NCBI RefSeq assembly: GCF_020463795.1
Contig: NZ_CP080025.1
Location: 375,001 to 439,000 of the forward strand
Source: Echinicola marina
GTDB taxonomy: Bacteria; Bacteroidota; Bacteroidia; Cytophagales; Cyclobacteriaceae
Reading direction: 5' to 3'
Length of the DNA stretch: 64,000 nucleotides
The notes beneath the pieces were generated by a model that saw nothing but the letters and a program-made list of their open reading frames with translations, was not told where the DNA came from and did no database searches. Position numbers and translations under genes: made by a program. This document shows, in pieces, positions 32,023 to 57,939 of the stretch (positions within the stretch are counted from its first letter, which is position 1; every line of letters begins with the position of its first letter).

Positions 32023-32040
32023 CTGCCTGACGGCAGGCAG
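32023..32040. repeat. Short palindrome CTGCCTG-acgg-CAGGCAG
   Basis: A perfect 7-base stem with a 4-base loop inside the tRNA-Ser leader. A related CAGGCATGCCTG palindrome with GCAG/CTGC flanks lies at 43892-43903. They may belong to a family of short dispersed palindromes. Confidence 0.5.
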
Positions 32041-35689: not shown

Positions 35690-37024
35690 CTATATTATTT
35701 GGTGTTCCTTTTCCTTAGGCTCCAATGCCTCCCTCAAAACCTGCTGCAAAAGCAATTCATTCTGCACTTGGCTTTCCATGATACTGGCCTCCAACTGATC
35801 ACAATACCCCATCAACTTATCTAGCTTGGCGACTATCCGTTGTTGTTCAGAAAGCGGGGGGATGGGAACATCTATGTCTCGAATTGTGCCCATTGACAAA
35901 CTGGGCTGCGCTGTTGCTTTAACATGCTTAAAAATTTCATTTCTTCCATAAGGTGAGCTAAGAAAATAGTTCAAGAATTTTAAATTGTAAAAATCTTCAC
36001 ATTCCTCGAATGGCTCTAATTTAGAAACATTGGGAGCTAAATGCCACCTTTCTTTCTCCCTGAACCTTGCAACATCACCAATACCAGCGCCTATAAAAGT
36101 CACCAATAGGGATTCTTTTGTCAAAGCACACCTCCCTAATAGAAGACTTGTTTCCTTATCGATAAATAGTAGGTTTGTTTTATCTAATTCGAACGGTCGA
36201 ACATTTTGAGCACGGACCACAGGAATTTCTCCAATCGTCTTGAAATTAATGTATTTAGTATATTCAAAACCCGCAAGTTTAGTTACAAAAAAAATATCGC
36301 CAACCTTAATTGGCACCCATGAATTTGGTATTTCCCATTCATTAGCTTTTGAAACCGATTGACTTGATGCTTTCCCTTTTTTTAGTTTCTTCTCCCTAAT
36401 CAACCTTTCTTTTTCCATCTTGATCTTCTCCAAAAGCACCGAAGCAGGTTCTTCATTTGGATCTTGTGGCACCAATTTACCTTGCATGGCTTCCCGCAAA
36501 AAGGCTTGACGGAGTTGCTTCACCAAATCAAGTTGGTGTGTGAGTTCATCACTAAGATTTTTGCTTTTAGCCTCTAGAATCCCATATTGTTCTACAAATT
36601 CTATTTGAACCTCAATAGGTGGAACAGGAATTTCAATTTTGGCAATTTCTTTCAATGGTAAGGTCACATTGGCCATACCTTTCATTCTACTCACCAATTC
36701 ATTTTCTCGATTCAGATCTAGATATCGAAATAGAAAATCTGCCCTAAGAATATCTTCATCATTTGGAATTACTGCACAGAGAATGTTGCCCACGGCAAAC
36801 TTTCCGGATTGAAAATGTATCCGCTTTAAGCTTTTGTGACCATGTCCTGTTGATGAAACCAGAGGAATGATAACTGCATTCCCCTCAAAATGGAATTCAT
36901 TATGTGAAAGCCGTTCTTCCGCTGTTACCACTAAAGGATATTTACCTGGAACAGCTTTTTGAATTCCAATTTTGCCTTTTTGAATATTACAAAGCTCTCC
37001 TAATGTCTTCTTCGTCCAACTCAT
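35690..37024 (-). CDS. hsdS: Type I restriction-modification specificity subunit HsdS
   Basis: 444 residues with the two target-recognition halves expected. TRD1 is at about 1-150, ending IAKIEIPVPPIEVQIEFVEQY. A coiled-coil spacer follows (about 160-225, LVKQLRQAFLREAMQGKLV). TRD2 runs to about 400, ending IRDIDVPIPPLSEQQRIVAKLDKLM, with a closing coiled coil. HsdS selects the DNA target for the methylase and restriction complex. Its ATG overlaps the hsdM stop by four bases (ATGA). Both TRDs look intact. Confidence 0.92.
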   Translation of the reverse strand: MSWTKKTLGELCNIQKGKIGIQKAVPGKYPLVVTAEERLSHNEFHFEGNAVIIPLVSSTGHGHKSLKRIHFQSGKFAVGNILCAVIPNDEDILRADFLFRYLDLNRENELVSRMKGMANVTLPLKEIAKIEIPVPPIEVQIEFVEQYGILEAKSKNLSDELTHQLDLVKQLRQAFLREAMQGKLVPQDPNEEPASVLLEKIKMEKERLIREKKLKKGKASSQSVSKANEWEIPNSWVPIKVGDIFFVTKLAGFEYTKYINFKTIGEIPVVRAQNVRPFELDKTNLLFIDKETSLLLGRCALTKESLLVTFIGAGIGDVARFREKERWHLAPNVSKLEPFEECEDFYNLKFLNYFLSSPYGRNEIFKHVKATAQPSLSMGTIRDIDVPIPPLSEQQRIVAKLDKLMGYCDQLEASIMESQVQNELLLQQVLREALEPKEKEHQII

Positions 37025-38457
37025 TTTATCGCAGATCTTATATGACTTAGTAGTTCATGGCTTCTATCAAAAGAATCATCCAACATGGTCATTAATTCAG
37101 AACTTGAATGTTCGATTTCTTCTTCCTGCTTGGTAGGGTTCTTAATATCTAAATCATAATTTCTGTCCTTAACAGTCTGAATATCCACCTTCCAACTCAC
37201 CTCGCTTTCCTGTCGATCATTCCACCATTTTTTAATGGGGTCAAATTCCTTTACTTGAAGTGGTTTTGTTTTACTATAGCTTTTTTGCCCTTCCGGCAAG
37301 CGATGCTCATAATACCATATCTCTTTGGTCGGCTCACCTTTGGTAAAGAACAATAAATTCGTTGCCACAGTAGCATAAGGCTTAAACACGGAATTGGGTA
37401 ATCGGATGATGGTGTGCAGATTACAATCGGTAAGCAGTTTTTCACGTACCCTTTGCTTTACACCATCCCCTGTCAAGGAACCATCAGGCAATACAATCCC
37501 AGCTCTACCACCCTGCTTCAGTAAATGCACCATCAGCACCAAAAACAGGTCGGCACTTTCCTTGGTCTTAAAATTCTGCGGAAAATTATTTTCGTTATTA
37601 TTGGCCACGATACCGCCAAAAGGAGGGTTGGCCAGGATCACGTTAACCCTGTTTTTTTCGGTATAATTGCTCAGTGGCTGATCCAAACTATCACGGAAAG
37701 TGATATTGGGCACCTCCATATCATGCAAAATCAGGTTGGTAGTGGCCAGCAAATAAGGAAGCGGCTTGTACTCCCATCCAAACACGTTCTTTGCTATACT
37801 CTCCCTTTCTGCTACACTATTGGCCTGGCTTTTCAAATGTTCAATAGCTGCTGTCAAGTAACCACCTGTTCCACAGCTAGGGTCTAAAATCTTTTCCCCC
37901 AATTGTGGATTCATCATTTCACAGATAAACTCCGTAATGGCTCTTGGTGTGTAGAATTCCCCGCTTTTACCCGCACTTTGCAGTTCCTTCAAAATGGTTT
38001 CATAGAGTTCGCCAAATGCGTGGCGGTCTTTGGCAATATTGAAGTCTATTTCATTGAGCTTGTTCAATACCTTGCGGAGATTGATCCCGCTTTTCATGTA
38101 ATTGTTATTGCCCTCAAACACCTCACGTACCAATAGTGCCCTTTGGTTGGCCAGGTCTTCGCTCATTCCCACCTTTAGGTTTCGAAGTGTAGGAAAGAGT
38201 TTCTGATCCACAAAAGCCTGTAATTCATCACCCGTAATCCCTTCATCATCCCCAGCCCATTCGTCCCAGTGAAACTCAGCAGGAATAGGGCTTTCGTAAT
38301 CGTCCTTAATGACTTCCAGCTCCTTGTCCTTATCGGAGAAAATTTTCAGAAACAGCATCCACCCCAACTGTTCAATGCGCTGTGCATCACCATTCAGTCC
38401 GGTGTCCTGCCACATGATCTTGCGGATGCTATCTAATATTCCTTTTAAGTTGGCCAT
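37021..38457 (-). CDS. hsdM: Type I restriction-modification methylase subunit HsdM
   Basis: 478 residues: an N-terminal helical HsdM domain (about 5-130), then an N6-adenine methylase domain. SGEFYTPRAITEFI (about 165-178), the SAM-binding motif DPSCGTGGYLTAAI (about 193-206) and the catalytic NPPFGG (about 279-284) are all intact. It methylates adenine at the site chosen by HsdS. The stop overlaps hsdS and the start follows the RhuM stop without any gap. Confidence 0.95.
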   Translation of the reverse strand: MANLKGILDSIRKIMWQDTGLNGDAQRIEQLGWMLFLKIFSDKDKELEVIKDDYESPIPAEFHWDEWAGDDEGITGDELQAFVDQKLFPTLRNLKVGMSEDLANQRALLVREVFEGNNNYMKSGINLRKVLNKLNEIDFNIAKDRHAFGELYETILKELQSAGKSGEFYTPRAITEFICEMMNPQLGEKILDPSCGTGGYLTAAIEHLKSQANSVAERESIAKNVFGWEYKPLPYLLATTNLILHDMEVPNITFRDSLDQPLSNYTEKNRVNVILANPPFGGIVANNNENNFPQNFKTKESADLFLVLMVHLLKQGGRAGIVLPDGSLTGDGVKQRVREKLLTDCNLHTIIRLPNSVFKPYATVATNLLFFTKGEPTKEIWYYEHRLPEGQKSYSKTKPLQVKEFDPIKKWWNDRQESEVSWKVDIQTVKDRNYDLDIKNPTKQEEEIEHSSSELMTMLDDSFDRSHELLSHIRSAIK

Positions 38458-39444
38458 TTATTTCTTCTTGTTTTTTAGCTGCTTGGCAGTCTTGTCAATA
38501 TTTTCAATAAAATCTTTCTCGACTTGAGAAAGCTCATTTTTAGTTTTTTCTTTGAACTTCTCATACTCCGAATGGGCTTTACCCAGTGCCTTTTGATGGC
38601 TGATCTTACCCGCATGGGTCAATATTTCATTCCCAGTCATGGTCAAAAAATCATCCAGCCTGGATACCCAGTCCTTCATATACATGGGCTTTCGGTTCAT
38701 CGCCTGTAATTCTGCCATTTCGAGGTAAGCCGTAACGATCCTGTTTAGAATTTCCAATTCCTGCTCGTTCAGGTAATTCTTGGCTACCTCGGTCTCCTTT
38801 TTTGTGGGCTTTGCCCCCTTAAAATTAGTAAGCCCAAGATTTTTTTTACCGGCATCTATCCTTTTGTAAATTACTTCTGCCGCTGTGTTTCCATGTGCAG
38901 CCCAGTGCATTTTATTTTGTACCGTTTTGAAAAAAGTGGTAGAAATTTCGGTGTTGGGATCGTAGTCTATACTGGTAGCATAGATATCCAGAACCTTTCT
39001 CCAAAACACCTTCTCGGAAGATCTAATGTCCCGAATTCTGGCAAGAAGTTCATCAAAGTAGTTACCACCTCCGGCCTCTTTTAGGAGCTCGTCATTCATG
39101 GTAAATCCCTTAACGATGTACTCTTTGATTCTCGAGGTGGCCCATTTTCTAAACTGAACACCCCGATGAGATTTCACCCTGTATCCCACAGAAATGATGA
39201 CATCCAGGTTATAGAACTTAACTGGACGGTCTGAACCACTAATGTGCAAAATCTGCACATTGCTTTTTTCGTCCAATTCTCCTTCTTTAAAAACATTCCC
39301 TATGTGCTTGGTGATCACACTTCTGTCCCGCTGAAAAAGGTCACTGATTTGTTCTTGGGTCAGCCAAACGGTTTCATTCTCTAATCGGGTTTGAATTTTG
39401 GTCTGCCCGTCTTCTGTTTGGTAAATTAGTATTTCCGAACTCAT
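38458..39444 (-). CDS. RhuM-family protein embedded in the type I operon
   Basis: 328 residues matching the RhuM family: an N-terminal DNA-binding-like part (ETVWLTQEQISDLFQRDRSVITKHIGNVF), then FYNLDVIISVGYRVKSHRGVQFRKWAT and a long helical C-terminal part with NRKPMYMKDWVSRLDDFL. RhuM was named as a Salmonella virulence gene but is very often found within type I restriction loci. Its role there is not established; interference with restriction or phage sensing are guesses. Its start shares one base with the hsdR stop and its stop abuts hsdM. Confidence 0.87.
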   Translation of the reverse strand: MSSEILIYQTEDGQTKIQTRLENETVWLTQEQISDLFQRDRSVITKHIGNVFKEGELDEKSNVQILHISGSDRPVKFYNLDVIISVGYRVKSHRGVQFRKWATSRIKEYIVKGFTMNDELLKEAGGGNYFDELLARIRDIRSSEKVFWRKVLDIYATSIDYDPNTEISTTFFKTVQNKMHWAAHGNTAAEVIYKRIDAGKKNLGLTNFKGAKPTKKETEVAKNYLNEQELEILNRIVTAYLEMAELQAMNRKPMYMKDWVSRLDDFLTMTGNEILTHAGKISHQKALGKAHSEYEKFKEKTKNELSQVEKDFIENIDKTAKQLKNKKK

Positions 39445-42194
39445 TAAGCTCCTGTATTATATAATTCTTGTTCCAATTCTTTTACGGCTTCTAAATATTT
39501 GGCTTTGCTTCCAAACTGCTTGATAATCTCCAAGGGGGAACCGTAATCCGTAAGCGGTTTGACCTTGAGGATATCCATGCTCTCAATATTGGTCACTCCT
39601 TCGTCTGCATACTTGTCCAAAAGCGTCTCTAAGACTTTCCTGGCTTGGTCACCATATTTAGTGAAATAATCCCGCTTTTTAACATTATTGGCACGTTCCT
39701 TACGTGTGAGTGGGGGCTGCTCAAAAGCAACATGGCATATAAGATCAAAAAGATCAACTCCCGCCTGTCTGCCGTTTAGATTGTCTAATAATTTTTGATC
39801 TTGCAACCAAATTCTGCCTCGACCAGATTTCAAGTATCTTTCTCTTTTAACCGCTTCACTTTCAGAATTAAATACCTCATAATGAATTAATTCAATCGGC
39901 TTATGGTTTTTGGTCCATTCAGCTCCCTCCCCATTCTTATGTTGTCTCCATCTATTTTTAAGATCAGTTGTCATGCCTTTATAGAGGCTACCGTCTTCAC
40001 ATTCGATTACATAGACATACCATTTTCCTGGGCTTTTGGCGGGCAGGTCCCTGTTTACTGCATCTCGCAAAGCTTCCACCAAAACACCTTGTTCTTCCAG
40101 TTCCTTGATGATGATTTCTTTTTTGTCCGTACTGTTCCATCGAGCTAGGAAATCATCCAAGGATGCGTACTGACCTTTGATCAATTCTTTGGTATGGTCT
40201 TTTAGGCTGGTGGTAATGGGCTTTCCATTGGTGTCAAAATACATTTCACGGCTGATCAACACCGATACATCCACCCCATTCACGTACACTTTCTGACGGG
40301 GCTCATTGACTTTGCTGGTTCTTGTCTGCGGTTCGGGATAGCGAATCTTTGTTCCGATTTCTATCTCTTCCCCTGTCTCCTCGTCTATGATCAGGCTGTC
40401 AATGCTTTGTTCTTCATCAACGATATTGGTCAAATCGGTATCCTCTGAAACAGGTTTTACTCTTATAGGGTCTCCATCAAAGTCCTTGTCGGCAAAAAGA
40501 TCAGTAACATTTCGAAAATCCAGAATAGTAAAAAACATTTTGCCAAATTCCTCATTGATCCTGGTTCCTCTTCCTACTATTTGCTTAAACTTGGTCATGG
40601 ATTTGATTTCCGCATCCAATACGATAACCCTACAAGTTTGGGCATCCACTCCGGTGGTCATTAATTCGGATGTAGTGGCTATCACGGGATATGTTTCTTC
40701 TGGATTGATAAAGTTGTCAAGCTCTCTTTTCCCTTCATCATTGTCTCCCGTAATCTGCATGATATACTTGTGGTTCTTGGCCACTAAATCAGCATTCAGA
40801 TTGGATAGGGCAAATCGCATCCGCTCAGCATGATCAATGTCCGAACAAAAAACAATGGTCTTGGCAAATCGGTCATAACCTTTCAAAAACTCAGTAAGCT
40901 TTCTAGCCACTGTTTGGGTTCGCTCATCGATGACCAGTGTTTTATCAAAGTCCTTCCGGTTATATACACGGTCTTCCACTTCCTTGCCATCCTTATCCTT
41001 TTTCCCTTGCTCCGGCCGCCAGCCTTCAGCATCAACGTTCAGGTTGACCCGAACCACCCGATAAGGAGCCAAAAAACCATCATCAATCCCTTGTTTAAGG
41101 GAATAGGTATAAATCGGATCTCCAAAATATTCAATATTGGATACCTCTTTGGTTTCTTTGGGAGTAGCTGTCAAACCAATATGGGTCGCTTTATTGAAAT
41201 AGCGAAGTATCTCCCGCCAGGCACTGTCCTCTTTGGCACTTCCTCTATGGCACTCATCTATGACTATGAGATCGAAGAATTCAGGTGAAAAATCCTTATA
41301 CGCATCTTCTATATCGCTGGCATTTGTCAATCCCTGATAAAGGCCCAGGAACACTTCATAGGCCTTATCCTCTGTATCTATTCCCCTCTTATTATTACTT
41401 ACAAGCTCTTCCTTTCCATCTGCCCTGCTCACCACCTTTTTTTTGATGATGGTCATCTTGTCTTTGAAATGTTTGAAATCCCCCCTTCTGGTTTGATCTA
41501 TTAGGGCTGTTCTGTCTGCTAAAAACAGAATTCTCTTCTTTGCCCTACTTTTCCAAAGTCGGTGGATGATCTGAAAAGCCGTGTAAGTCTTTCCCGTTCC
41601 GGTTGCCATGACCAGTAAAATCCTTCCTTGTCCATTTGCAACCGCCTCTACCGTTCGGTTTACAGCAATTTGTTGATAATATCTAGGTGACCTACCACTT
41701 CCGTCAAAATAGTAATCCTGTAATGCTACTTCTTGAGCCTCGCTTGTATGGATTCCTTTGTATTGTTTGTACTTTTTTAAAAGTTCTTCAGGACTTGGAA
41801 AGCTATCAATATCAAGTTCTGTCTCAATATTTCCGTCAGTGGCCGTCCGGTCATGGAAAACAAACCCGTCACCATTGCTACTAAAAACACATGGTATATC
41901 CAGGATTTCGGCATAGTCCAAAGCTTGTTGCAGTCCTGCCCTTACTGAATGTCTATTGTCCTTGGCCTCAACAATTGCAATAGGGATATTGGGTTTGTAG
42001 TATAGGATATAATCTGCTCTTTTTCTTTTTCCCCTTGCGGTAAGCCTTCCCCTAACATAGATTTTACCATCTGTAAATGATACTTCTTCAAGTAACTGAG
42101 TGGTCTTGTCCCAACCCGCCTTTTCTATGGCAGGTGTGATGAATTTGGTACAAATATCACGTTCAGAAAGGGTTTTCTTGTCAATCATAATCAC
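39444..42194 (-). CDS. hsdR: Type I restriction endonuclease subunit HsdR with inserted GIY-YIG domain
   Basis: 916 residues. The N-terminal PD-(D/E)xK nuclease has D61 and E76-A-K78 (IVEAKDNRHSV). The SF2 translocase has Walker A ATGTGKT (197-203), DECH (313-316), TATPKE and QIVGRGTRINEEFG. The C-terminal EcoEI-type domain includes DLFDLICHVAFEQPPLTRKERA. Between two parts of that last domain, at about 725-800, sits a complete GIY-YIG nuclease domain absent from ordinary HsdR. All motor and nuclease motifs look intact and the frame is unbroken. It is the second cistron after an Xre regulator gene (35-base gap). Confidence 0.9.
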   Translation of the reverse strand: MIMIDKKTLSERDICTKFITPAIEKAGWDKTTQLLEEVSFTDGKIYVRGRLTARGKRKRADYILYYKPNIPIAIVEAKDNRHSVRAGLQQALDYAEILDIPCVFSSNGDGFVFHDRTATDGNIETELDIDSFPSPEELLKKYKQYKGIHTSEAQEVALQDYYFDGSGRSPRYYQQIAVNRTVEAVANGQGRILLVMATGTGKTYTAFQIIHRLWKSRAKKRILFLADRTALIDQTRRGDFKHFKDKMTIIKKKVVSRADGKEELVSNNKRGIDTEDKAYEVFLGLYQGLTNASDIEDAYKDFSPEFFDLIVIDECHRGSAKEDSAWREILRYFNKATHIGLTATPKETKEVSNIEYFGDPIYTYSLKQGIDDGFLAPYRVVRVNLNVDAEGWRPEQGKKDKDGKEVEDRVYNRKDFDKTLVIDERTQTVARKLTEFLKGYDRFAKTIVFCSDIDHAERMRFALSNLNADLVAKNHKYIMQITGDNDEGKRELDNFINPEETYPVIATTSELMTTGVDAQTCRVIVLDAEIKSMTKFKQIVGRGTRINEEFGKMFFTILDFRNVTDLFADKDFDGDPIRVKPVSEDTDLTNIVDEEQSIDSLIIDEETGEEIEIGTKIRYPEPQTRTSKVNEPRQKVYVNGVDVSVLISREMYFDTNGKPITTSLKDHTKELIKGQYASLDDFLARWNSTDKKEIIIKELEEQGVLVEALRDAVNRDLPAKSPGKWYVYVIECEDGSLYKGMTTDLKNRWRQHKNGEGAEWTKNHKPIELIHYEVFNSESEAVKRERYLKSGRGRIWLQDQKLLDNLNGRQAGVDLFDLICHVAFEQPPLTRKERANNVKKRDYFTKYGDQARKVLETLLDKYADEGVTNIESMDILKVKPLTDYGSPLEIIKQFGSKAKYLEAVKELEQELYNTGA
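39795..40022 (-). other. GIY-YIG nuclease domain inserted in HsdR
   Basis: Residues 725-800 of HsdR: the paired strands WYVYVIE and LYKGMT (the GIY and YIG positions), the arginine of LKNRWRQHKN, and the catalytic-type glutamate in SESEAVKRERYLKSGRGR. This is the full length of the small free-standing UvrC-like GIY-YIG proteins common in Bacteroidota. It follows DAVNRDLPAK and is followed, after a 13-residue linker, by the normal HsdR sequence. Confidence 0.85.
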
Positions 42195-42229
42195 GCAATC
42201 AAAAAGGTCAAGTCAAACAAGGAAAATAA

Positions 42230-42514
42230 TTACTTGGCCAATTCCCCTTGTACAAAATTTAAGGCATTCAAACCTTGTGGCTCTTGGTCAATATCATCTA
42301 TAATCTTATCAGCCAACCAAAGCAGTTCCAGTTCTTTTTCATCTACCTCCAAAAAAGCTGCGATTTTTTTTAGCTGATTCTTTTGAGCCTTTCTCTCCCC
42401 TCGCTCCAGTTTACTGACCAAAGCTGTATCCGCTTCAATATAGGCCGCTACTTGTCTAAGTAGAAAACCTTTAGCTTCTCTTAGCTCACGAATTCTTCTT
42501 CCCAAATAGGTCAT
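42230..42514 (-). CDS. Xre-family regulator upstream of hsdR
   Basis: 94 residues: a helix-turn-helix of about 60 residues (LGRRIRELREAKGFLLRQVAAYIEADTALVSKLERGE broken into helices 1-4) and a short acidic C-terminal helix. Size, position at the head of the operon and same orientation suggest a controller protein timing restriction expression. The intergenic region upstream has inverted repeats it could bind (42562-42584). Confidence 0.82.
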   Translation of the reverse strand: MTYLGRRIRELREAKGFLLRQVAAYIEADTALVSKLERGERKAQKNQLKKIAAFLEVDEKELELLWLADKIIDDIDQEPQGLNALNFVQGELAK

Positions 42515-42907
42515 AGGATACAGATTTAGGTTCTAAAATCCTTTACAAATCTATTATTATTTCTGAGACTTGTCAGAATTAGTCAAATATAAAAAATACC
42601 ATGAAAATTAAACGTGTCACATTGGCCTTTTTCATATTTCAAGCTTTTTTAACGCTTAATAAATAATTGACTGATTCAACAGAATAAACGAAAACTGTAT
42701 TTGTTATATGAATTTTTAATTGATGGTTCTTCCGCTTTCAATCAAACTTAAAGAGAAATAACAAAACCCATCATTTATCTGGGATCTTAATAAAACAGTA
42801 AATAGTTTTTGTACTACAAAGGAATTTCTATCAGCGAAGATGAAGCCTTTTAAATCCACCTCAACTTCTCACAAAATTTGGTAGGTAAAAAGTTATTTGA
42901 ATTATAT
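42515..42907. other. Promoter region of the type I operon; no gene
   Basis: About 390 AT-rich bases. At 42562-42584 there are overlapping inverted repeats, TCTGA-gacttg-TCAGA and GACT-N10-AGTC, about 50-70 bases before the Xre start. Their GACT/AGTC halves recall controller-protein boxes. A 21-codon frame at 42601 resembles a signal peptide only and is not called. Confidence 0.35.
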
Positions 42908-43258
42908 TTACTGGTCATTTTCACTTTGACTTTTCAAATAAAACAGCTTGTTCAACCCCTCATAACCCTCCTCCGCCAACACCCTCAACTCTTCACCTAA
43001 ACTGGAAATAGGATAATCCAGGCATCTATCCATATAGCCCATATAAGTATCTAAAAAATCATTCTCCAAATGCTCTGGTACTTCCATCAGCCGCTTGACC
43101 AAATCCATAATACCCAGATGATGTCGATGGCCGGCATCCAAGTCCAAATTATCCAAGCCCTTAACCAGCTGGTTATGCTTGAGATCTTGACGGATCAATT
43201 CTCTGATAAGCTCGTCATTTTGAATATTGATCATAATGTTCTTATTAAGTTTAAACAA
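42908..43258 (-). CDS. Hypothetical protein coupled to an Xre regulator
   Basis: 116 residues (a shorter form starts at 43234, MINIQNDE). Helical and acidic, with LDAGHRHHLGIMDLVKRLMEVPEHLENDFLDTYMGYM in two parts and no recognised domain. The start overlaps the 3' end of the Xre gene upstream by 8 bases, so they are made together. The pair has the look of a regulator plus a small partner such as an antirepressor or toxin-antitoxin unit, but nothing proves this. Confidence 0.55.
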   Translation of the reverse strand: MFKLNKNIMINIQNDELIRELIRQDLKHNQLVKGLDNLDLDAGHRHHLGIMDLVKRLMEVPEHLENDFLDTYMGYMDRCLDYPISSLGEELRVLAEEGYEGLNKLFYLKSQSENDQ

Positions 43259-43637
43259 TAGCCTCCTTTATCAGGCTTTTTAAAGTATCATTGCTGTCTT
43301 TGAGTTCTCGGAGTATCTCGATTAAGGTATCAAACTGGCTACCATCCATGAGAACTTTCCTTTTTTCGAGTTCATCAAAATACTCAATCAGTTGCCCTGG
43401 CCTTATGGTCAAAATATGAATGGGATCAACCTGCACATAATCGGCATATTTTTTAATCAGGTCCACCGTGATTTTGGTTTCTCCACGTTCATATTTGGTA
43501 TAGGCGGCCTCGCTGATTCCTAAATGAAAAGCCAGCTCCATGGCCTTAAGACTCCTCAGTTTTCTAAAGGTCATCATATTATGTCCTATTGATTGATTAT
43601 CAAGGAGCGCTTCTTTAAACTGGCTTGGATCACTCAT
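43251..43637 (-). CDS. Xre-family helix-turn-helix regulator
   Basis: 128 residues. The HTH_3 domain is at about 20-75 (FRKLRSLKAMELAFHLGISEAAYTKYERGETKITVDLIKKYA in segments), then an acidic helical tail. It is coupled to the hypothetical gene that follows (8-base overlap). A regulator within the accessory island, presumably controlling its own small operon. Confidence 0.82.
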   Translation of the reverse strand: MSDPSQFKEALLDNQSIGHNMMTFRKLRSLKAMELAFHLGISEAAYTKYERGETKITVDLIKKYADYVQVDPIHILTIRPGQLIEYFDELEKRKVLMDGSQFDTLIEILRELKDSNDTLKSLIKEAIV

Positions 43638-44214
43638 ATCTAAATATTAAGTAGTTCTAAATGACGCTTTATCCTAGTTGACTTTATTTGTGATAGCATA
43701 ATTACTCTGTTATAATCAATGCATTCTTTGTTACTTTTTTTCTGCAGGTAAAAAAAGTAACCAAAAAACCCCGCCGCTATACATCTATTGGGTTAAAATA
43801 AAAGCCTTCCCTCATGCAGGCAAACTCCTCCTGTAAAACTGCCAGCCAACTTTTTAATCGGCAATTCGTCAAATCTACCTTTGGCGGCAGACAGGCATGC
43901 CTGCCTTTCTGCTTACCCTCTTCTTTAATTTCTTAACACCCAATATCTGCAAGGCGGACCAGCATATTTGTTTGTTTTACCAAATTAATAATAGGCCCAA
44001 GTTATTCTTTCTAAACTAAGGCGAACCTATTTTAAAGGTATCATCCTCAAAATTAAGAACTGCAATAATACAATTTATCCACCCTCCCAATTCTAAACTA
44101 TTCCTACAGGAATAAAATATTCCTTGATTCACCTAACCACCATTTATAAAAACCATTTCCCAAATTCCACCAATTTCCTTAACTTGTCTTTTAGTTTTTT
44201 AATAGCCAAGAGTT
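43638..44214. other. Divergent intergenic region of the island, with two palindromes
   Basis: 577 bases without a gene. It contains a perfect 12-base inverted repeat at 43730-43761 and the palindrome CAGGCATGCCTG at 43892-43903 within GCAG...CTGC flanks. It should hold divergent promoters for the two Xre genes on either side; no exact consensus was found. Confidence 0.45.
43730..43761. repeat. Perfect 12-base inverted repeat
   Basis: GTTACTTTTTTT (43730-43741) pairs with AAAAAAAGTAAC (43750-43761) around the 8-base loop CTGCAGGT. The pattern resembles hairpins repeated in many Bacteroidota genomes, a recollection that needs a genome search. Confidence 0.7.
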
Positions 44215-44637
44215 ATGACCAATTCAGCTGCACGAAATATCCATCAGGGACGCAACATCAAACGCTTTAGGGAAATGCTGGGCATCAAGCAAGACGCCTT
44301 GGCCCACGAACTGGGAGAAGACTGGTCCCAAAAGAAAATCAGCCTACTAGAGCAAAAAGAGAGCATAGAGGAAAATATTCTAAAGGAGGTAGCAGAAATC
44401 CTTCATATTCCTGTTGAGGCCATCCAAAATTTTGATGAGGAGCAAGCGGTGAATATTATTTCGAACACTTTTAATGAAGGATCATTTTTAAATACTGGGC
44501 ACACCCCTACATTTAATGTTAACCCAATTGACAAATTGCTTCAACTTCATGAAGAAAAAATTGCGCTATACGAGAGGATGTTGAAGGAAAAAGATGAAAT
44601 GATGGCTAGGTTAGAACGTTTGATTGGAGGTAAATGA
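44215..44637 (+). CDS. Xre-family helix-turn-helix regulator
   Basis: 140 residues: an HTH at about 10-65 (GRNIKRFREMLGIKQDALAHELG, WSQKKISLLEQKE) and a C-terminal helix rich in Glu/Lys (LLQLHEEKIALYERMLKEKDEMMARLERLI) that could form a coiled coil for dimerisation. It is divergent from the other Xre gene and 115 bases before a hypothetical gene on the same strand. Common in Bacteroidota conjugative and mobilisable elements. Confidence 0.8.
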   Translation: MTNSAARNIHQGRNIKRFREMLGIKQDALAHELGEDWSQKKISLLEQKESIEENILKEVAEILHIPVEAIQNFDEEQAVNIISNTFNEGSFLNTGHTPTFNVNPIDKLLQLHEEKIALYERMLKEKDEMMARLERLIGGK

Positions 44638-44752
44638 TTTTATTTAGCCCCTAAGTAATCTCTACTTTTCCAATTCTAAAATATCCCCCTCAAGAATACT
44701 TCATCCCATCATCAGACCCGACCTTAAATGGCGTAACATAAAATGTACTGCC

Positions 44753-45217
44753 ATGAAAAAGAAAAAATCTAAAGTGATTGTAGTTGACAAATACAAAAAA
44801 TACACTGAGATAGGAAACATGTATTCTTCCCGCTGGAGAAAGTTGGACCTATTTATCCCCAGTAACTTCCGGTTACTATGTGCCATTCTAAAAGTAAAGC
44901 CAGAAGACATCTTAATGGATTTTATGTGGATGGTATGTTATGGAAATAAGGATGCTACCAACAAGCAAGCCAAATCTGCTCAGAAATACTTTCTGACGGC
45001 TCAGTTTGGTCAACCCTCTTATTCTAAAAAAGAAATCAAAAAGATGTTTAAGGAATTAAAAGCTGTCAGAACACTCATTAACACCACCGATAAAATGAAT
45101 GAAGAAGACCAAGAGCTATTCTGGAAAAATAAGCATATGTATCTAGAATTCTGGTATAAAAGGTGGTTTGAGAAAAACACGAGGAAGGAGGATTTTTCCG
45201 TTTTGGAGAAATTCTAG
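44753..45217 (+). CDS. Hypothetical protein of the mobilisable element
   Basis: 154 residues, strongly basic at the N-terminus (MKKKKSKVIVVDKYKKY) and helical, rich in Lys, Trp and Tyr near the end (FWYKRWFEKNTRKEDF). No domain is recognised. It lies convergent to the relaxase gene with 185 bases between them, in which nothing else was found. Basic character fits a nucleic-acid-binding accessory protein, but this is only a possibility. Confidence 0.6.
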   Translation: MKKKKSKVIVVDKYKKYTEIGNMYSSRWRKLDLFIPSNFRLLCAILKVKPEDILMDFMWMVCYGNKDATNKQAKSAQKYFLTAQFGQPSYSKKEIKKMFKELKAVRTLINTTDKMNEEDQELFWKNKHMYLEFWYKRWFEKNTRKEDFSVLEKF

Positions 45218-45402
45218 GCTACAATGCATGGTCTGAACTTTTGCCAACATCAAGCGGATTGTTAGGTTTTATGCGGGAGTTATATGGTCTTATTAGGGAG
45301 CTTAAACGAAGGTTGAGTTTACACTGGTTATTAAAACAAGGGTAAAAAAATGATCTAATTTACCCTCGTTAATTATGTAAACCATTACCTAAAATTACTA
45401 AT

Positions 45403-46578
45403 TTAAATACTTCTACCCTTTTTCCGTCTCTTTTTTTTCTTCTTAGGAATTTGACCTACCTCCCCAGTATCAGGAACAGGCCTAAGCAGCAGATCAAGAA
45501 TATCAATGGTACCACCAACAATTTGATGACTAAGGTAAATTTCTTTTCGATCTTTTGTTGCTGTTCGTGCTGGTATTGAAGCTCCATCTTTATCACCTCG
45601 AGTTTGGAATTCATTTTGATCCCGCACTGATAATTGGTCTCGATCTGATCGTTCAGTCTGTCCTGCTTTCTGCTGATGTGCAGGAGACTGTCCTGCATCT
45701 TGGGAATGTACCCCATGAACTCGAGTTGTTTTTTCATCATTTCCTGATAGCCCTCTTGGGTATTTTGATGTTGTTCTTGCGTTTGCCTGGCCAATTGCTT
45801 GGCGATCTCTAGTTTGCTCATAGTGTAAGGTATTTGCGATGTTCTTCCATTTGAATTGGTTACCCAAGGATTGTCCTTTGGCCTTGAAGCCATCATAGCA
45901 ATAGGCTACTCCTGATACCCTGCCGGTACTGGCCTGGTTGAACAACAGGTTGGCTCCTGAAGCCTCTACTTGATGGATAAAATCCTCAATGGTATTGGTC
46001 CGCTTTAAGGCCTCTGATATTATTTGCTGTAGCACCATTTTCTTTGAGGGTTTACCGGTTCTCATTACCATTTCGATTTCATCCTTATTGGGCGCCTTGA
46101 CTTTGGCCTCCTTGCTGCTCTTTACTTGCTGCAATCCATATTTCTTTTCCAGTTTTCGCACCAGGCTTTCACTCCTTCTGTAATTGTTGCTGTCCGAGAC
46201 CACGGTTCCATCAAATCGGTTTCTCAGTGCCAACAAATGGCAATGGGGATGGTCGGCATCATGATGTCTGAAAATAAAATAGGCATTGTCATCGAATCCC
46301 ATGCCTTTCAGGTATTCATTGCCTATGGCCAACATTTTATCATTTGATATTTTTTCCTCCTTGCCAAAGCTTAGACTGACATGATAAGTGTTCCGTTTTA
46401 GCCTGGGATTCATACTCTTCATCAGCTCTACTTCTTTCTTTACCATTTCCCTGTCCAAACTGGTGAAGTTGGTTTCCAGTACTTCCGCCCGTTTGCTTTC
46501 ATCACTGGTCAGCATCTTTTTGAGATTATAATCCAGTGCTCCCATAAAGTTTTTGCCGATGGACTGTTTAGCGATCAT
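45403..46578 (-). CDS. Relaxase/mobilisation nuclease (MobA/VirD2-like)
   Basis: 391 residues from the ATG at 46578 (MIAKQSIGKNFMGALDYNL, the normal start of this family); an upstream start 16 codons earlier has no homology-like sequence. The metal-binding histidine motif HHDADHPHCHLLALRNRFDG is complete. The N-terminal tyrosine near residue 19 (DYNL) is the likely nicking residue. The C-terminal third is low-complexity and basic and overlaps a different gene in another frame. It nicks and pilots DNA at oriT during mobilisation. The start overlaps the mobC stop by 11 bases. Confidence 0.87.
   Translation of the reverse strand: MIAKQSIGKNFMGALDYNLKKMLTSDESKRAEVLETNFTSLDREMVKKEVELMKSMNPRLKRNTYHVSLSFGKEEKISNDKMLAIGNEYLKGMGFDDNAYFIFRHHDADHPHCHLLALRNRFDGTVVSDSNNYRRSESLVRKLEKKYGLQQVKSSKEAKVKAPNKDEIEMVMRTGKPSKKMVLQQIISEALKRTNTIEDFIHQVEASGANLLFNQASTGRVSGVAYCYDGFKAKGQSLGNQFKWKNIANTLHYEQTRDRQAIGQANARTTSKYPRGLSGNDEKTTRVHGVHSQDAGQSPAHQQKAGQTERSDRDQLSVRDQNEFQTRGDKDGASIPARTATKDRKEIYLSHQIVGGTIDILDLLLRPVPDTGEVGQIPKKKKKRRKKGRSI
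45456..45821 (-). CDS. Membrane-anchored coiled-coil protein nested out of frame in the relaxase gene
   Basis: 121 residues from the ATG at 45821 (MSKLEIAKQLARQTQEQHQ). It is read on the same strand as the relaxase, shifted by one base, and lies wholly inside the relaxase 3' end. It has a long Gln/Glu/Lys-rich coiled coil (about 1-95) followed by a strong membrane helix (TLVIKLLVVPLIFLICCLG). The regular protein architecture is unlike a chance frame, whereas the relaxase frame there is low complexity. A small membrane partner of the relaxase is plausible. The alternative is that one of the two frames is untranslated. Confidence 0.6.
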   Translation of the reverse strand: MSKLEIAKQLARQTQEQHQNTQEGYQEMMKKQLEFMGYIPKMQDSLLHISRKQDRLNDQIETNYQCGIKMNSKLEVIKMELQYQHEQQQKIEKKFTLVIKLLVVPLIFLICCLGLFLILGR

Positions 46579-46912
46579 GAAGCAGCAGTTTGATGACCTG
46601 GTCCAGTTTTGTAGAGATGGCGTCAATTGCCTTCATCCTGTCCGCTGGCACCTCAAATTTTGAATTGAGTTGTTTGGCTATCTGGTTGATATTATTACCA
46701 ATTCTTTTGAGCTCCACATAAGTCTGTTTGTCCAGTTTGGGGACCTTCGCCTTGGGCAACCTGTTTTTGAACACGCAAGCCCTGACCACGTCAGCGGCCG
46801 GCATCGCTGCCACCTCGCATAAACTCCCCAGCAGCCGGACCTCTTCTTCGGTCATCCGGAAAGTAAACTTTATATTTCTCTTCTGGTCTGCGGGTTTCTT
46901 TGGTCTTCCCAT
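46568..46912 (-). CDS. Mobilisation protein MobC (plasmid mobilisation relaxosome protein)
   Basis: 114 residues: basic ribbon-helix-helix-like N-terminus (GRPKKPADQKRNIKFTFRMTEEE) and the MobC signature YVELKRIGNNINQIAKQLN (about 71-89). MobC proteins bind near oriT and help the relaxase open the DNA. The relaxase start is inside its 3' end. The oriT-like hairpin is 34 bases upstream of its start. Confidence 0.88.
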   Translation of the reverse strand: MGRPKKPADQKRNIKFTFRMTEEEVRLLGSLCEVAAMPAADVVRACVFKNRLPKAKVPKLDKQTYVELKRIGNNINQIAKQLNSKFEVPADRMKAIDAISTKLDQVIKLLLHDR

Positions 46913-46945
46913 GAGTGAAATGAACGGAGTGAATTTCAGCCTGAG

Positions 46946-46998
46946 CGGAGCGAAGCAAGCCGTTTTGGTCTGACCAAAACATGGCTTGCTTCGCTCCG
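46946..46998. other. Candidate oriT: long perfect hairpin upstream of mobC
   Basis: CGGAGCGAAGCAAGCC (46946-46961) pairs with GGCTTGCTTCGCTCCG (46983-46998), all 16 bases. Inside, GTTTTGGT pairs with ACCAAAAC around a 3-base loop, with a 2-base AT bulge on one side. It fills most of the 101 bases between mobC and the primase gene. Inverted repeats just upstream of mobC-relaxase genes are the usual setting of oriT. A transcription terminator for the primase gene is the alternative, but no T run follows. Confidence 0.5.
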
Positions 46999-47013
46999 AC
47001 TTGTAAAACGTTC

Positions 47014-47553
47014 CTACCTTCGCATGCCAACGCTTTTTGACTTTCGATGGTAATCGTTTAGATCCTTATGCCCCAAATAGTTGCCCGATTGGTCAGTGCA
47101 TTGGCTGAAGTCTTTCAACAATCTTTTTGTCCAGGCCTTGCCTTGTATATCGTTGTCAAGGTAAAGGTTGACCCGTGGAAATCCTGCCAAAATCTTCTTT
47201 GCCGCATCCATATTAGACAGGGAATTGAGAACTAAGAAGTCATCTGGCTTCACTTCTTTTTGGTTGCGCTCGTAGAAACTGAGCAGGTCAAAAATTCCTT
47301 CGAACATATGAAGGTTGTTGCCTTCTCCTGGATAGTAGCTAATACCCTGGGCACTGCTTCCTTTCCAATAGGCATTCCGAATGGCCCAGCCGTTCTCGTT
47401 CCTATTTCCGATCCCGAAATACTTTTTGTCCCCTATGGAATAATACACTTCCATACAGAATCTGGATGCGGTCTCGACACTTACCTTCCGGTGAAGAAGG
47501 TAGTCCGTTAAGGTCGGATTGCTTCCAATGGCTTTTACCGACCGGATGGTCAT
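47014..47553 (-). CDS. Toprim-domain part of a split DNA primase
   Basis: 179 residues. The toprim features are the Glu of HMFEGIFDLLSF (about 91-102) and the paired acids of VNLYLDNDIQGKAW (about 132-145). The related one-piece primases of Bacteroidota mobile elements begin with a CHC2-like domain, which is here encoded separately just upstream. The start overlaps that gene's stop as ATGA. The two together have about 287 residues, the normal size of the whole protein. It would prime replication of the excised element. Confidence 0.75.
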   Translation of the reverse strand: MTIRSVKAIGSNPTLTDYLLHRKVSVETASRFCMEVYYSIGDKKYFGIGNRNENGWAIRNAYWKGSSAQGISYYPGEGNNLHMFEGIFDLLSFYERNQKEVKPDDFLVLNSLSNMDAAKKILAGFPRVNLYLDNDIQGKAWTKRLLKDFSQCTDQSGNYLGHKDLNDYHRKSKSVGMRR

Positions 47554-47876
47554 TTTGGATCCTGTTCCTTTTCCATGGGTTCCTGTGGGTGAAAAGAAAA
47601 AGAGTTACCAGTAATATCTTCGATGTAATGAAGGGCATCGGAAACCGAAATGCCCGGTTTCAATTTCATGACCAGATCAAGGACCTTTCCGCCATAATTA
47701 TTGTCCCCAAAATCAATCCATAGATTCTTGGAGGCACTGACCTTAAAGGAAGGTGTGTTTTCTTTCCTGTATGGGGAATGATAGAAATAACTGTCCCCTG
47801 AAATCTTTGATGGTTTGATGCCAAGCTTTTCCAGAAAACCAATAATGGAAAGGTCATTGGCTTGTTTGATGTTCAT
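47550..47876 (-). CDS. N-terminal (CHC2-like) part of a split DNA primase
   Basis: 108 residues like the N-terminal domain of mobile-element primases: ANDLSIIGFLEKLGIKPSKI, YFYHSPYRKENTPSFKVSASKNLWIDFG, GGKVLDLVMKL. The usual zinc ligands are not seen, as in many of these elements. The frame ends in the linker region, and the toprim part continues in another frame with a 4-base overlap. Either a frameshift broke one gene, or a working two-gene form exists. Confidence 0.72.
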   Translation of the reverse strand: MNIKQANDLSIIGFLEKLGIKPSKISGDSYFYHSPYRKENTPSFKVSASKNLWIDFGDNNYGGKVLDLVMKLKPGISVSDALHYIEDITGNSFSFHPQEPMEKEQDPK

Positions 47877-48021
47877 GGTAAGGTTGTTAAATGGTGAAAA
47901 TGTAAAACATGATTACTACGGATACTACCAGTGCGGGTGTGGTAGGCTTTATTAATTTTCTTATTAGTTGCCCATCCTATCTAATAGCTATAATCTTTGA
48001 AGTAGGAAGTACCCTGAATTT

Positions 48022-48303
48022 CTATTTTTTAAAGCCGTTCTTTTGCCTGCCCGCATTCATGACCTCCGACTTTTTGAAATAAACCCTGGTATTAAAGACA
48101 TGCTCCTTTAAAAACCCTTCCTTTCGCCAATTATTGATCGTCGTTCGGGACCTACCCAAAAGCTTCATAACTTCAGGGATTTGGATCAATTCATCATCCG
48201 GCTCTTGAGCAGGTAAAACGTCCGAAAGCCGAGAGGCAACCGCATCGGCGATTTCATCTACCAATACCTCCTTTTCAATTTGTGTTAAGATTACATCGTT
48301 CAT
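48022..48303 (-). CDS. Helix-turn-helix DNA-binding protein (excisionase/MerR-like)
   Basis: 93 residues. The C-terminal half has the small winged helix of this class: LIQIPEVMKLLGRSRTTINNWRKEGFLKEHVFNTRVYFKKSEV (in pieces, about 40-83). In Bacteroidota mobile elements this gene regularly precedes the primase and mob genes and acts as an activator or excision factor. A palindromic site lies upstream at 48348-48374. Confidence 0.82.
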   Translation of the reverse strand: MNDVILTQIEKEVLVDEIADAVASRLSDVLPAQEPDDELIQIPEVMKLLGRSRTTINNWRKEGFLKEHVFNTRVYFKKSEVMNAGRQKNGFKK

Positions 48304-48347
48304 GGCATAACTGTTTGATTACACTCCAAACTTGCCAAAACTATCTT

Positions 48348-48374
48348 TTGGGTAGTTAATCCGGGTATACCCAA
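48348..48374. promoter_or_regulatory. Palindromic operator-like site upstream of the HTH gene
   Basis: TTGGGTA (48348-48354) and TACCCAA (48368-48374) are perfect inverted arms. The second overlaps the 10-base palindrome GGGTATACCC (48363-48372). The site lies 45-71 bases before the HTH start, suitable for autoregulation. Confidence 0.4.
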
Positions 48375-48510
48375 GTTTTCAAAAAAGTTAGGTTTCTACC
48401 TAGATCCCTATCTCATGCTTGATCCTCTTTTGAAAGTTCCCTTTAAGTTTTTTGAACAGATGGTATTAAAATTTTGGAAAGAGAATTCATGACACGAAAA
48501 AAAAGGGCCA

Positions 48511-48981
48511 TTAAAGCCCTCCTTCATCAGCATAGGAATAATAGGATTCACTGGTAACAATTATATGATCCAGAACCGGCAATTCCATCAATTTACCCAG
48601 TTTGACCATTCGTTCAGTCAAATTGTTATCGGCATTACTTGGGAATCTATTTCCAGAAGGATGGTTGTGGACCAAAATCATTCCTGAGCTATTCGATTTT
48701 ACCGCAGCTGCAAAAATGATTTTTGGATCAGCAACAGTTCCAGAGGTTCCGCCCGTCGAGACATCAACGACTCCAAGAACCCTGTTGGAACGATTAAGCA
48801 ACATCACTTTAAACTGTTCTACGAACTGCAGTTTTGACTTATCCCAGTTTTCCAAAAGGACATCATAGGCTTCTTTGGAAGAGGTGATTTTAGGGACTTG
48901 GGAGAGCTTGACTTTGGGCCGGTAACTAAGGACGATTTCGGCTACTTTGTTGGAAACGATATTTTTGCTTTGGGTATCCAT
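48511..48981 (-). CDS. RadC/JAB-domain protein
   Basis: 156 residues. The JAMM metal motif is present as HNHPSGNRFPSNAD (about 101-114), with GVVDVSTGGTSGTVADPK before it and DHIIVTSESYYSYADEG at the end, the classic RadC C-terminal. The N-terminal helix-hairpin-helix of chromosomal RadC is missing, as usual for the short form carried by mobile elements. Its role is unknown; DNA repair function was not confirmed for RadC. Confidence 0.9.
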   Translation of the reverse strand: MDTQSKNIVSNKVAEIVLSYRPKVKLSQVPKITSSKEAYDVLLENWDKSKLQFVEQFKVMLLNRSNRVLGVVDVSTGGTSGTVADPKIIFAAAVKSNSSGMILVHNHPSGNRFPSNADNNLTERMVKLGKLMELPVLDHIIVTSESYYSYADEGGL

Positions 48982-49342
48982 AACATTTCATTTTTAAGGT
49001 TAGAAATTAATTTGGATACCATCCCAGCTTGAGGGCAATCAAGGCCAAGTGGCAACGGAATAAATGAAGGCCTAGCGGGCAGCCCAGTGTTTATGCCGAA
49101 CGCTCTTGGCACGCTACAGCAGCCCGAAAGCTAACTTTGTATCTGATTAATGAATAAATTATGCCCCTAATCTTTTGAAATTGTCCTATAAGTATCTACT
49201 CTTAACATTGAATTCTAAACTTTTTTACCTATTAGTGCATTTGTAAACGAAGCCATGCCCACAACAAAAAGTAGGGCTTCCTAAAATGCCTTTATAAATT
49301 AAACTTTTGGACCAAATAATGAAGGGAAAACTAAATCAATCT
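48982..49342. other. Right end of the island; no gene
   Basis: 361 bases between RadC and the GntR gene. The place where an integrase or attachment site could be expected shows neither; a short G+C-richer stretch lies at 49,020-49,130. No copy of the tRNA-Ser 3' end was found here. Confidence 0.4.
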
Positions 49343-50389
49343 TCATATAGAGCTCCTCTTTATAAAAGAAAAGTCATTTTTATATTGAATAATTTTTCTT
49401 TCAGAAACACATCTTGCTGCTAACTCTCCCATTTTTTTAAAGTCTGTTGACAATACCGAAACATTAAACAATTTTTTAATTGGAGTATCATTATAACTGA
49501 TTACACCTATGTCTAGCCCCAAGGCATATTTTTTTGATTTTACTCGAATCATAACTTCTAAAAAATCATTTTCACTAATCACGACATAAGCCTGGCCAGC
49601 ACTAAAACAACTATCCAGAGATGAGACATCAAACACTTCGAAAGCCAAATCATTTTTTTTACAAAAAGTGATAAAGCCTTGTTTCACTTCTATGGGATAG
49701 CTATGAAAATAGCTTTTTGGGTATATAAGATTGATCTTTCCATATCGCTTGATTTCATTAATCGCTTGAGTAAGGGCCAAATTGATATCCTTTTCAAAAT
49801 CCTGATAGATGCAACTATAATTTTCTTTTAGATCAGGAATTTTCTTTTCTAAAACAATCAACTTTTCCCTTGGGATATTTTCTATACGTTCAAGGATTTG
49901 TTTAGGTAGCCCATAATGTTCTTTCTTAGGAACATGAAATAATGGTATAACCACTACATAATCATAGTTTTCGAATGAAGTTCCTAATTGGTCCATAAAT
50001 ATATGGACATCATTAAAAAAGAGACGAAATTCAATATCATAATCTTTATTTAGAGCTTCCTGCATTGTTTTAAAAACCTCTAATTTATAAGGACTTACTT
50101 TATTGACTAAATAGAGTATTTTCCCCACTTGATGTAGGACTTTCTTTTTATTCACATAGTAACCTTTTGAAGGTTCAGCCATCACTACGCCTTTCTTCCG
50201 GAGCCAATTATAGGCCTTCTCAATTGTGTCCCTTGATAGATATAACCGCTCACTCAACTCGTTTATTGAAGGAAGTTTATCCCCATTGGATATTTCTTCA
50301 ATGTAAATAAGAGAATAAATTCTATTGGCTACTTGTTGATATTTAGGAACTCTTGAACCTTCATCGATTTTGATATCAAAGTTCTTCAT
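49343..50389 (-). CDS. GntR-family regulator with sugar-binding-like effector domain
   Basis: 348 residues: an N-terminal GntR winged helix (about 10-78; YQQVANRIYSLIYIEEI, LPSINELSERLYLSRDTIEKAYNWL) and a C-terminal LacI/periplasmic-binding-protein-like domain (about 85-345), the form common in Bacteroidota carbohydrate loci. It is AT-rich, unlike the enzyme genes next to it. Its place directly downstream of the polysaccharide-utilisation genes suggests it controls them; the ligand is unknown. Confidence 0.83.
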   Translation of the reverse strand: MKNFDIKIDEGSRVPKYQQVANRIYSLIYIEEISNGDKLPSINELSERLYLSRDTIEKAYNWLRKKGVVMAEPSKGYYVNKKKVLHQVGKILYLVNKVSPYKLEVFKTMQEALNKDYDIEFRLFFNDVHIFMDQLGTSFENYDYVVVIPLFHVPKKEHYGLPKQILERIENIPREKLIVLEKKIPDLKENYSCIYQDFEKDINLALTQAINEIKRYGKINLIYPKSYFHSYPIEVKQGFITFCKKNDLAFEVFDVSSLDSCFSAGQAYVVISENDFLEVMIRVKSKKYALGLDIGVISYNDTPIKKLFNVSVLSTDFKKMGELAARCVSERKIIQYKNDFSFIKRSSI

Positions 50390-50453
50390 AAAGTCCTCTA
50401 TTTTCCATTAATTAATATAAACAAAATTTATTATTTGATCATTTTCAAACCTT

Positions 50454-50565
50454 GACCCGTGTTTTCACTGCACCTTACCACGGACCGAATGAAAGGTCAC
50501 GAGTAGAGAAACTCTGCCCCAACGAATAATAGCCACCTTAAGTTCTTATCCTGTGAGTACGGGTC
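50454..50565. repeat. 112-base element with terminal inverted repeats (MITE-like or structured)
   Basis: The ends GACCCGT (50454-50460) and ACGGGTC (50559-50565) are perfect inverted repeats, with imperfect extension inward (TTCAC against GTGAG). Inside are GACC...GGTC and AGAG-AAA-CTCT hairpins. It occupies the gap between the GntR and GH140 genes. It may be a small deleted transposable element or a terminator-like structure of the locus. Confidence 0.4.
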
Positions 50566-50578
50566 GAATTTGACTTTT

Positions 50579-51946: not shown

Positions 51947-51966
51947 TGGTTGCTTACAAATTTTCT

Positions 51967-54291: not shown

Positions 54292-54444
54292 TTTTTAATA
54301 TTTAGAATCTCCTTATTAGAAGAAGATGTAAGTTGCTATTTATCGTTTGTCCTCAAACCCGACAGGCTTTCCTTTTGTCTTGATAAAAAAGGAATAAGTC
54401 TCGAAGTGATTCTTCTGGGAAAATCTAGGCTGTGAATTAAAATG

Positions 54445-55292: not shown

Positions 55293-55303
55293 TTTAAAAT
55301 TAT

Positions 55304-57859: not shown

Positions 57860-57939
57860 ATGTAATCTTAAATTTATCTGCTCTCTAAAAATCTTCCTCA
57901 TCGGGATTTGATCCCGGTGAGGAACATATCATTAACTGA

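Follow-up and report, generated by a model that had tools for sequence, protein, structure and literature searches.

The 64,000-nucleotide stretch of the Echinicola marina genome analysed here (the window; positions 375,001 to 439,000 of contig NZ_CP080025.1) carries a type I restriction-modification (R-M) operon whose hsdR gene contains, in frame, a GIY-YIG nuclease domain. We propose that this domain is probably a selfish, homing-endonuclease-like cassette of about 290 bp, an in-frame invader of hsdR that is not spliced and is retained in the protein. The features on which the analysis bears are as follows (genomes and loci carry our own G and L numbers, the window genome being G000; gene coordinates are from the open reading frame list and domains from Pfam).

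39444..42194, minus strand: hsdR (HSDR_N nuclease, ResIII/helicase, inserted GIY-YIG, EcoEI_R_C), 916 amino acids (aa), GTG start as listed
39760..40047, minus strand: inserted cassette, 288 bp or 96 codons, reading D-LPAK...NGRQAG, defined by empty-site comparison with G169 and G234; same ends in L041 and other genes
40038..40047, minus strand: left end of the cassette, CCTGCCCGCC, from the junction comparison
39760..39774, minus strand: right end of the cassette, CGGCAGACAGGCGGG, in the window copy resembling the left end only weakly as an inverted repeat (a score attained by 269 of 5000 random pairs)
39825..40025, minus strand: GIY-YIG catalytic domain, HsdR aa 724-790, with conserved Y728, Y738, R748, H752 and E785
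38458..39444, minus strand: RhuM-family gene, between hsdM and hsdR
37021..38457, minus strand: hsdM of the hsdR operon
35690..37024, minus strand: hsdS of the hsdR operon

The insert and its boundaries

The hsdR reading frame runs uninterrupted from 42194 to 39444, cassette included. Its domains follow the order HSDR_N, ResIII, Helicase_C, GIY-YIG, EcoEI_R_C, the insert lying between Helicase_C and EcoEI_R_C and matching PF01541 at aa 724-790 (E 3.3e-17; score 63 bits, cut-off 22.6). With an HSDR_N nuclease, a superfamily 2 (SF2) helicase, EcoEI_R_C and an operon that includes hsdM and hsdS, the protein has the features of an EcoEI-type type I HsdR. A preliminary description of the locus held that a full GIY-YIG domain sits in frame within an HsdR that keeps its own nuclease residues (D61, E76, K78) and helicase motifs, giving a single polypeptide with two nuclease folds. 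All of this was borne out: the residues and motifs are present, the three residues are invariant across 43 aligned HsdRs (the alignment numbering begins three residues later), and HSDR_N and GIY-YIG share the one 916-aa frame. The insert had been placed at 39795-40022; it is real, but that extent was too small, the inserted piece being the 288 bp at 39760-40047. An AlphaFold2 model of HsdR (mean pLDDT 54, pTM 0.35) was too poor for judging domain packing.

The boundaries come from genes lacking the insert. The empty hsdR site of G169 and G234 reads AACAGGGAG-GTTGATC, and the filled site reads AACAGGGA, then CCTGCCCGCC...GGCAGACAGGCGGG, then A-GTTGATC. The simplest reading of this alignment would be a clean 288-bp insertion behind the GA of a Glu codon together with one junction-base change; a 289-bp insertion with one base lost cannot be told apart from it.

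Columns Y728, Y738, R748, H752 and E785 (HsdR numbering), which we take from I-TevI to be the active site, are invariant in seven aligned cassettes. The cassette has the conserved Tyr, Tyr, Arg and Glu of the GIY-YIG superfamily of UPF0213-like type but is not a stand-alone small protein, being embedded, like its close relatives, in a long host protein. As far as the sequence can tell, the insert bears neither an intein nor an intron signature. Pfam found no intein splicing (Hint) domain in HsdR, and the insert opens with LPA after Asp and closes with Gly before Val, with none of the Cys, Ser or Thr residues expected at intein junctions (the junction rule is taken from PMC11855218). An Rfam scan of 39500-40300 returned no group I or group II intron up to E 1 and one weak small RNA (sRNA) match below its cut-off, and the frame is open throughout. 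Neither ATG nor GTG nor TTG occurs among the first 14 codons of the cassettes in the window and G773, so the nuclease is probably produced as part of the host protein.

Filled and empty alleles

G169 and G234, which belong to the same genus as the window genome, have hsdR without the domain. Nucleotide identity to the window gene is 100% on the 5' side of the site and 99.7% on the 3' side in G169, and 98.6% and 98.1% in G234. From 36262 to 43743 nothing but the cassette and its junction base distinguishes the window from G169, within a near-identical stretch of at least 24 kb (35706..59467; 99.9% and 98.9% in two pieces flanking the cassette). Its right end, 59467, is the end of the compared G169 DNA and no boundary; left of 35706 identity falls to 66-80%. 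This near-identity indicates that the stretch was shared recently between the window lineage and that of G169. The cassette would then be either very young in the window lineage or very precisely lost in that of G169, and the emptiness of nearly all relatives favours gain over precise loss. A DNA search found no second copy in the window genome (next match 23 bases, E 0.12), so the donor was probably external; recent copying from elsewhere in the same genome is ruled out, the search returning only the copy itself.

As a separate observation on this stretch, the alignment of 40048-59467 with G169 has 207 differences, of which 206 are mismatches and one is a gap; 187 of them lie within 52000-55999, a cluster suggesting local recombination.

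The site was then surveyed in 109 HsdR proteins of more than 50% identity. The site is empty in 106; the remainder are the window copy itself (L011), L032, which has no residues in the aligned region, and L041, which is filled. In L041, from a Saprospiraceae metagenome-assembled genome (MAG), precisely this codon is occupied by a cassette that is 82% identical to the window copy and shares its ends. The search for the same insertion in other HsdRs, called for in the preliminary description, thus found it once beyond the window copy. The insertion is not unique to one assembly, and its catalytic residues are conserved in L041 and in relatives. Misassembly as its origin is ruled out by this second organism with identical junctions. 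Between the window and L041 the cassettes are 82% and the hosts 85% identical; in nucleotides the values are 76% and 75%, cassette divergence at that level equalling host-gene divergence, which fits long co-inheritance as much as it would old homing. The proportion of nonsynonymous differences between the two cassettes (pN 0.11) is far below that of synonymous differences (pS 0.76, saturated), which points to purifying selection on the nuclease.

More direct evidence of movement came from G773, in which three type ISP paralogues (two complete copies and one cut by a contig end) carry the cassette at the same motif. The hosts are only 55, 37 and 38% identical in amino acids, and the cassettes are 95-98% identical in amino acids and 94-98% in nucleotides. 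In the 60 bp next to the cassette, host nucleotide identity is 0.67-0.78; farther out, bins range over 0.32-0.80, with 22 of 36 between 0.45 and 0.60. If the assembly is right, this pattern cannot be the product of vertical inheritance alongside the host. Nonsynonymous rates among these cassettes (dN 0.007-0.027) compare with synonymous rates (dS) of 0.08-0.18; judged from such rates, the nuclease is under purifying selection. Two hallmarks of homing elements are thus found, namely presence and absence at one site in near-identical alleles, and, in the G773 trio, spread to homologous sites in diverged genes.

Related cassettes in restriction-modification genes

Relatives were sought with a protein query in 395 genomes of the phylum and with profiles in 391, 244 and 295 genomes of three classes; these sets overlap, and the profile counts rest on the matches listed. 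Among these, scores above 115 bits were obtained in the 391 genomes for G551, G824 and, twice, G773 (next 81.5), in the 244 for G422 (next 82.9) and in the 295 for G000, G1234, G1126 and G1257 (next 80.5). A tenth place above 115 bits is in G681, the genome of L041, and the third G773 copy, cut by the contig end, scores 75 bits. The matches listed form two score groups, those outside the strong one reaching at most 83 bits and lying mostly in frames of about 70-200 aa. G824, the G773 copies, G1234, G1126 and G1257 were absent from the profiles that first found them. Each strong match lies inside a long open reading frame identified by Pfam as R-M. Among the matches listed in the profile searches, 13 of the 14 places with frames of at least 500 aa are likewise R-M by Pfam, the remaining one (L258 in G1091) being a long GC-rich frame outside the Pfam scan. 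Nothing above 76 bits was found in 169 genomes of another phylum, 73 pattern matches in viral contigs included zero relatives, and 42 plasmid and 26 phage records gave only matches below 60% identity among those listed. The hosts fall into five classes, identified by Pfam.

Site A: EcoEI-type HsdR; the window and L041
Site B: HindI-type HsdR; G551, G824, G1126 and G1257
Site C: helicase regions of EcoEI-type HsdR, in-frame inserts; G401, G780 and G902, on a separate GIY-YIG branch among free-standing genes
Site D: HsdM; G422 and G1234
Site E: type ISP enzyme; the three G773 copies, the cut third one with N6_Mtase, Eco57I and MmeI methyltransferase matches

Seven of the eleven cassettes (sites A, D and E) start GAC-CTR-CCY-GC. 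The six complete ones at these sites measure 285, 288 or 297 bp, every length a multiple of 3, and have CGGCAG near the right end and GG as final bases. The same mode of entry is seen when empty and filled genes are aligned. In HsdM, Persicobacter PHVP-D-AWIDESKT compares with PHVP-D-[LPA...RQAG]-VWVDESKT in G1234, and in the type ISP enzyme, Agrobacterium LHGNTKKKEVTP-E-GKPDKNVFDI compares with LHGNSxKKExxP-D-[LPA...RQAG]-G(S/G)KDENVFDI in G773. The empty entry points are VP-D/A and TP-E/G (the slash marking the point), so that in EcoEI-type HsdR, HsdM and type ISP enzymes alike the cassette enters at an Asp or Glu codon. In a tree (in which the site C loci L205, L207 and L209 occur twice), all eleven cassettes fall to the same side of a 97/91 branch, and one change each suffices for sites A, C, D and E.

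Other inserts were noted in these hosts. The 1339-aa HsdR of G551 (L187) has, at aa 443-547 and in addition to its GIY-YIG insert, a DUF559 nuclease-like domain inserted in frame between repeat-like peptides; four aligned relatives lack this domain, and apparently this is a second nuclease family behaving alike. In the site C genes L134, L205 and L207 the GIY-YIG inserts lie close to repeats that resemble TTCGACAAGCTCA and TGAGCYTGTC; in frame these translate as STSSPT and, in L134, as PELVDS repeats. Taken together, the site C lineage and the DUF559 insert suggest that several nuclease families may have adopted this lifestyle. The HsdM of G422 (L133/L188) also contains in-frame palindrome-coded stretches (AAGACGCAGCATGCTGCGTCT, read VKTQHAASP).

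Explanations and precedents

The comparisons described here show sharply bounded ends, a length divisible by 3, in-frame entry, a recent gain in the window lineage, precise spread among diverged paralogues of another genome and purifying selection on the nuclease. Entry after the GA of an Asp or Glu codon places the nuclease in the host frame. A homing-like cycle would join these properties: the nuclease, produced within the host protein or as a piece of that protein, would cut the conserved motif wherever it is empty, and repair templated by a filled copy would insert the cassette with little or no flanking DNA. The host R-M protein would tolerate the insert at a permissive junction, helped further by R-M genes being dispensable and often transferred. 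Frequent transfer, dispensability and an abundance of diverged paralogues are plausible reasons for the preference for R-M genes.

Several observations weigh against this proposal. No flanking co-conversion is visible around the window cassette or the G773 trio, which is unusual for classical homing and a real difficulty for its textbook form. Pfam finds PF01541 alone in the insert, with no NUMOD or other known DNA-binding domain; orthodox GIY-YIG homing enzymes are described as having a separate DNA-binding region, with NUMODs (PMC1564403). Some of the strong matches (G551, G422 and G000 among them) helped to build the profiles that find them. The tree was built on only 80 columns, needs two changes for site B and puts one free-standing sequence, L156, whose branch is very long, on the side of the cassettes. 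In most same-site pairs cassette and host are about equally diverged, which plain co-inheritance also explains (for G551 and G824, the cassettes are 78% and the hosts 87% identical). Finally, site B does not follow the DLPA pattern: its four HindI-type HsdR cassettes lack DLPA ends, and a palindrome-coded stretch, separate from the cassette, precedes it by a few residues. Where the HsdR of Myroides reads RFMAW-KTTDGISE-ASKQ, in the filled genes W is followed by a palindrome-coded stretch starting PVCV, and the GIY-YIG domain immediately precedes AS.

In the main rival, movement would depend on the ends of the cassette, as in a REP/MITE element or a transposon: the GIY-YIG or another enzyme would recognise the CCTGCC...GGCAGG arms and join them to GA targets, and bare palindromes would be non-autonomous copies. 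One palindrome of this kind lies in the window.

32023..32040, plus strand: bare palindrome CTGCCTGACGGCAGGCAG, resembling joined cassette ends, beside a tRNA-Ser gene (pattern search)

The identical ends in three unrelated host gene families speak for such end-directed movement, as does the missing co-conversion. Judged against 5000 random pairs, the inverted repeat of the arms is strong in the two complete G773 copies, where 1 pair does as well, fair in L041, where 23 do, and weak in the window, G422 and G1234 cassettes (269, 327 and 418). Elsewhere in the window genome (G000:C1:2322816) stands a bare palindrome whose arms, CCTGCCCGCC and GGCAGACAGG, are those of the window cassette, and the reversed control pattern occurred 0 times in every genome searched. 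G169 has bare palindromes too, one of them in frame within a long open reading frame that looks hydrolase-like by eye. Such palindromes may be non-autonomous relatives of the cassettes. Bare copies are nevertheless scarce, with three of at most one mismatch and two more of another spacing in the window genome and none in G551, G401, G255 or G681. The hairpins beside free-standing relatives mostly look like terminators by eye, and free transposition would not favour the restriction of cassettes to homologous motifs. We regard end-directed movement as unlikely, though as the alternative to be taken most seriously.

The preliminary description had proposed instead a useful second nuclease, one that could alter the way HsdR cuts or be kept for restriction or against phage countermeasures. 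Purifying selection between the window and L041 copies at the same codon, the confinement to R-M hosts and the invariant active site are in its favour. The proposal fares badly against the distribution, since an otherwise identical hsdR in G169 does without the domain, as do 106 of the 109 HsdRs, and in G773 the cassette moved independently of its hosts. Its position varies by host family, related domains occurring at differing places in unrelated R-M proteins that include a methyltransferase subunit; with no common architecture among hosts, nothing points to a shared accessory function. An adaptive role is in our view improbable. Least probable of all is an ordinary fusion, immobile by itself and carried along with a transferred hsdR, which would account for the similar divergence of cassette and host in most same-site pairs but is contradicted by the G773 trio unless the assembly is wrong, by insertions that recur in five host/site classes, of which site C belongs to another branch, and by the empty twin in G169.

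Homing-like movement has partial precedents. Nucleases embedded at conserved host-gene sites with presence/absence polymorphism are familiar from inteins with homing endonucleases and from intron-borne GIY-YIG enzymes such as I-TevI; the cassette shares this embedding and polymorphism but has no splicing domain, and no intron was found. Short palindromes lie in frame in coding genes as Rickettsia palindromic elements, and REP/RAYT systems tie palindromes to an enzyme; here palindrome-like arms flank a GIY-YIG reading frame. The nearest solved sequences are the UPF0213/small GIY-YIG proteins PDB 1ywl and 1zg2 (E 2e-16 and 1e-15), whose chains are proteins of 96 and 107 aa, whereas the eleven close relatives found here are embedded in long open reading frames. 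A 2006 survey described MCA0838, an HsdR of Methylococcus capsulatus with a GIY-YIG insert of the Slx1 cluster at about position 800, called it unique, noted a close homologue without the insert and suspected that it plays no part in restriction (Dunin-Horkawicz et al. 2006, PMC1564403). MCA0838 and the window HsdR share an inserted GIY-YIG domain and an empty close homologue; the portion of the account consulted contains no ends, relatives in other R-M genes or movement, and the two were compared by description only. The ShiLan domain of an actinobacteriophage DNA methylase was reported as an unspliced homing insertion with an out-of-frame HNH nuclease (Arsenault et al. 2025, PMC11855218). 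The likeness lies in an unspliced insert that leaves the frame of its host, a DNA-modification gene, open, in the presence of a nuclease and in a distribution resembling homing; the ShiLan nuclease is HNH, out of frame and in phages, whereas the present family is GIY-YIG, in the host frame and in bacterial R-M genes of several families.

Our literature search, which did not reach bioRxiv preprints or most subscription journals, found no paper on this cassette family. What appears new is the family in its several hosts, with its ends and its spread within a genome; single relatives of the idea date from 2006 and 2025. It is possible, and we put it forward only tentatively, that these nuclease cassettes with fixed palindrome-like ends, inserted in frame into conserved R-M motifs, unspliced and travelling with R-M systems across Bacteroidota, form a new class of protein-embedded mobile element. 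Membership of the relatives in Bacteroidota is judged from those with names, nearly all of which belong to it. The same 2006 survey asked whether GIY-YIG members beyond the known homing and restriction enzymes are molecular parasites (PMC1564403). The near-isogenic pair of filled window hsdR and empty G169 hsdR makes that question directly testable, and the three G773 paralogues with nearly the same cassette in one genome offer a further test system. If our proposal is true, introns and inteins are not needed for a selfish nuclease to endure inside proteins, such nucleases settle preferentially in bacterial defence genes, and domain insertions in R-M enzymes should not be taken by default as added function.

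Some minor observations concern palindromes and gene neighbourhoods. Around 77 free-standing GIY-YIG loci (a set that mistakenly includes the site C loci L205, L207 and L209), 12 hairpins were counted upstream and 12 downstream (0.82 per kb each) against 17 at far positions (0.13 per kb); a general link between palindromes and free-standing GIY-YIG genes is not claimed, most of the listed hairpins being those that resemble terminators. At L169/L181 (G169:C1:1550787-1551122), tandem units about 318 bp apart, read by eye, combine a tRNA-like 5' piece with a CCTGCC...GGCAGG palindrome and the first part of a free-standing GIY-YIG reading frame. Among the matches listed, G1214 has ten GIY-YIG copies at a regular 457-bp spacing. 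In the window, a reverse transcriptase gene with a match to the Drt2 defence family (32484-34166) and a DUF4917/SIR2-like gene (34635-35687) stand beside the R-M operon, and the defence cluster that they form with it adjoins the tRNA-Ser gene at 32092-32177.

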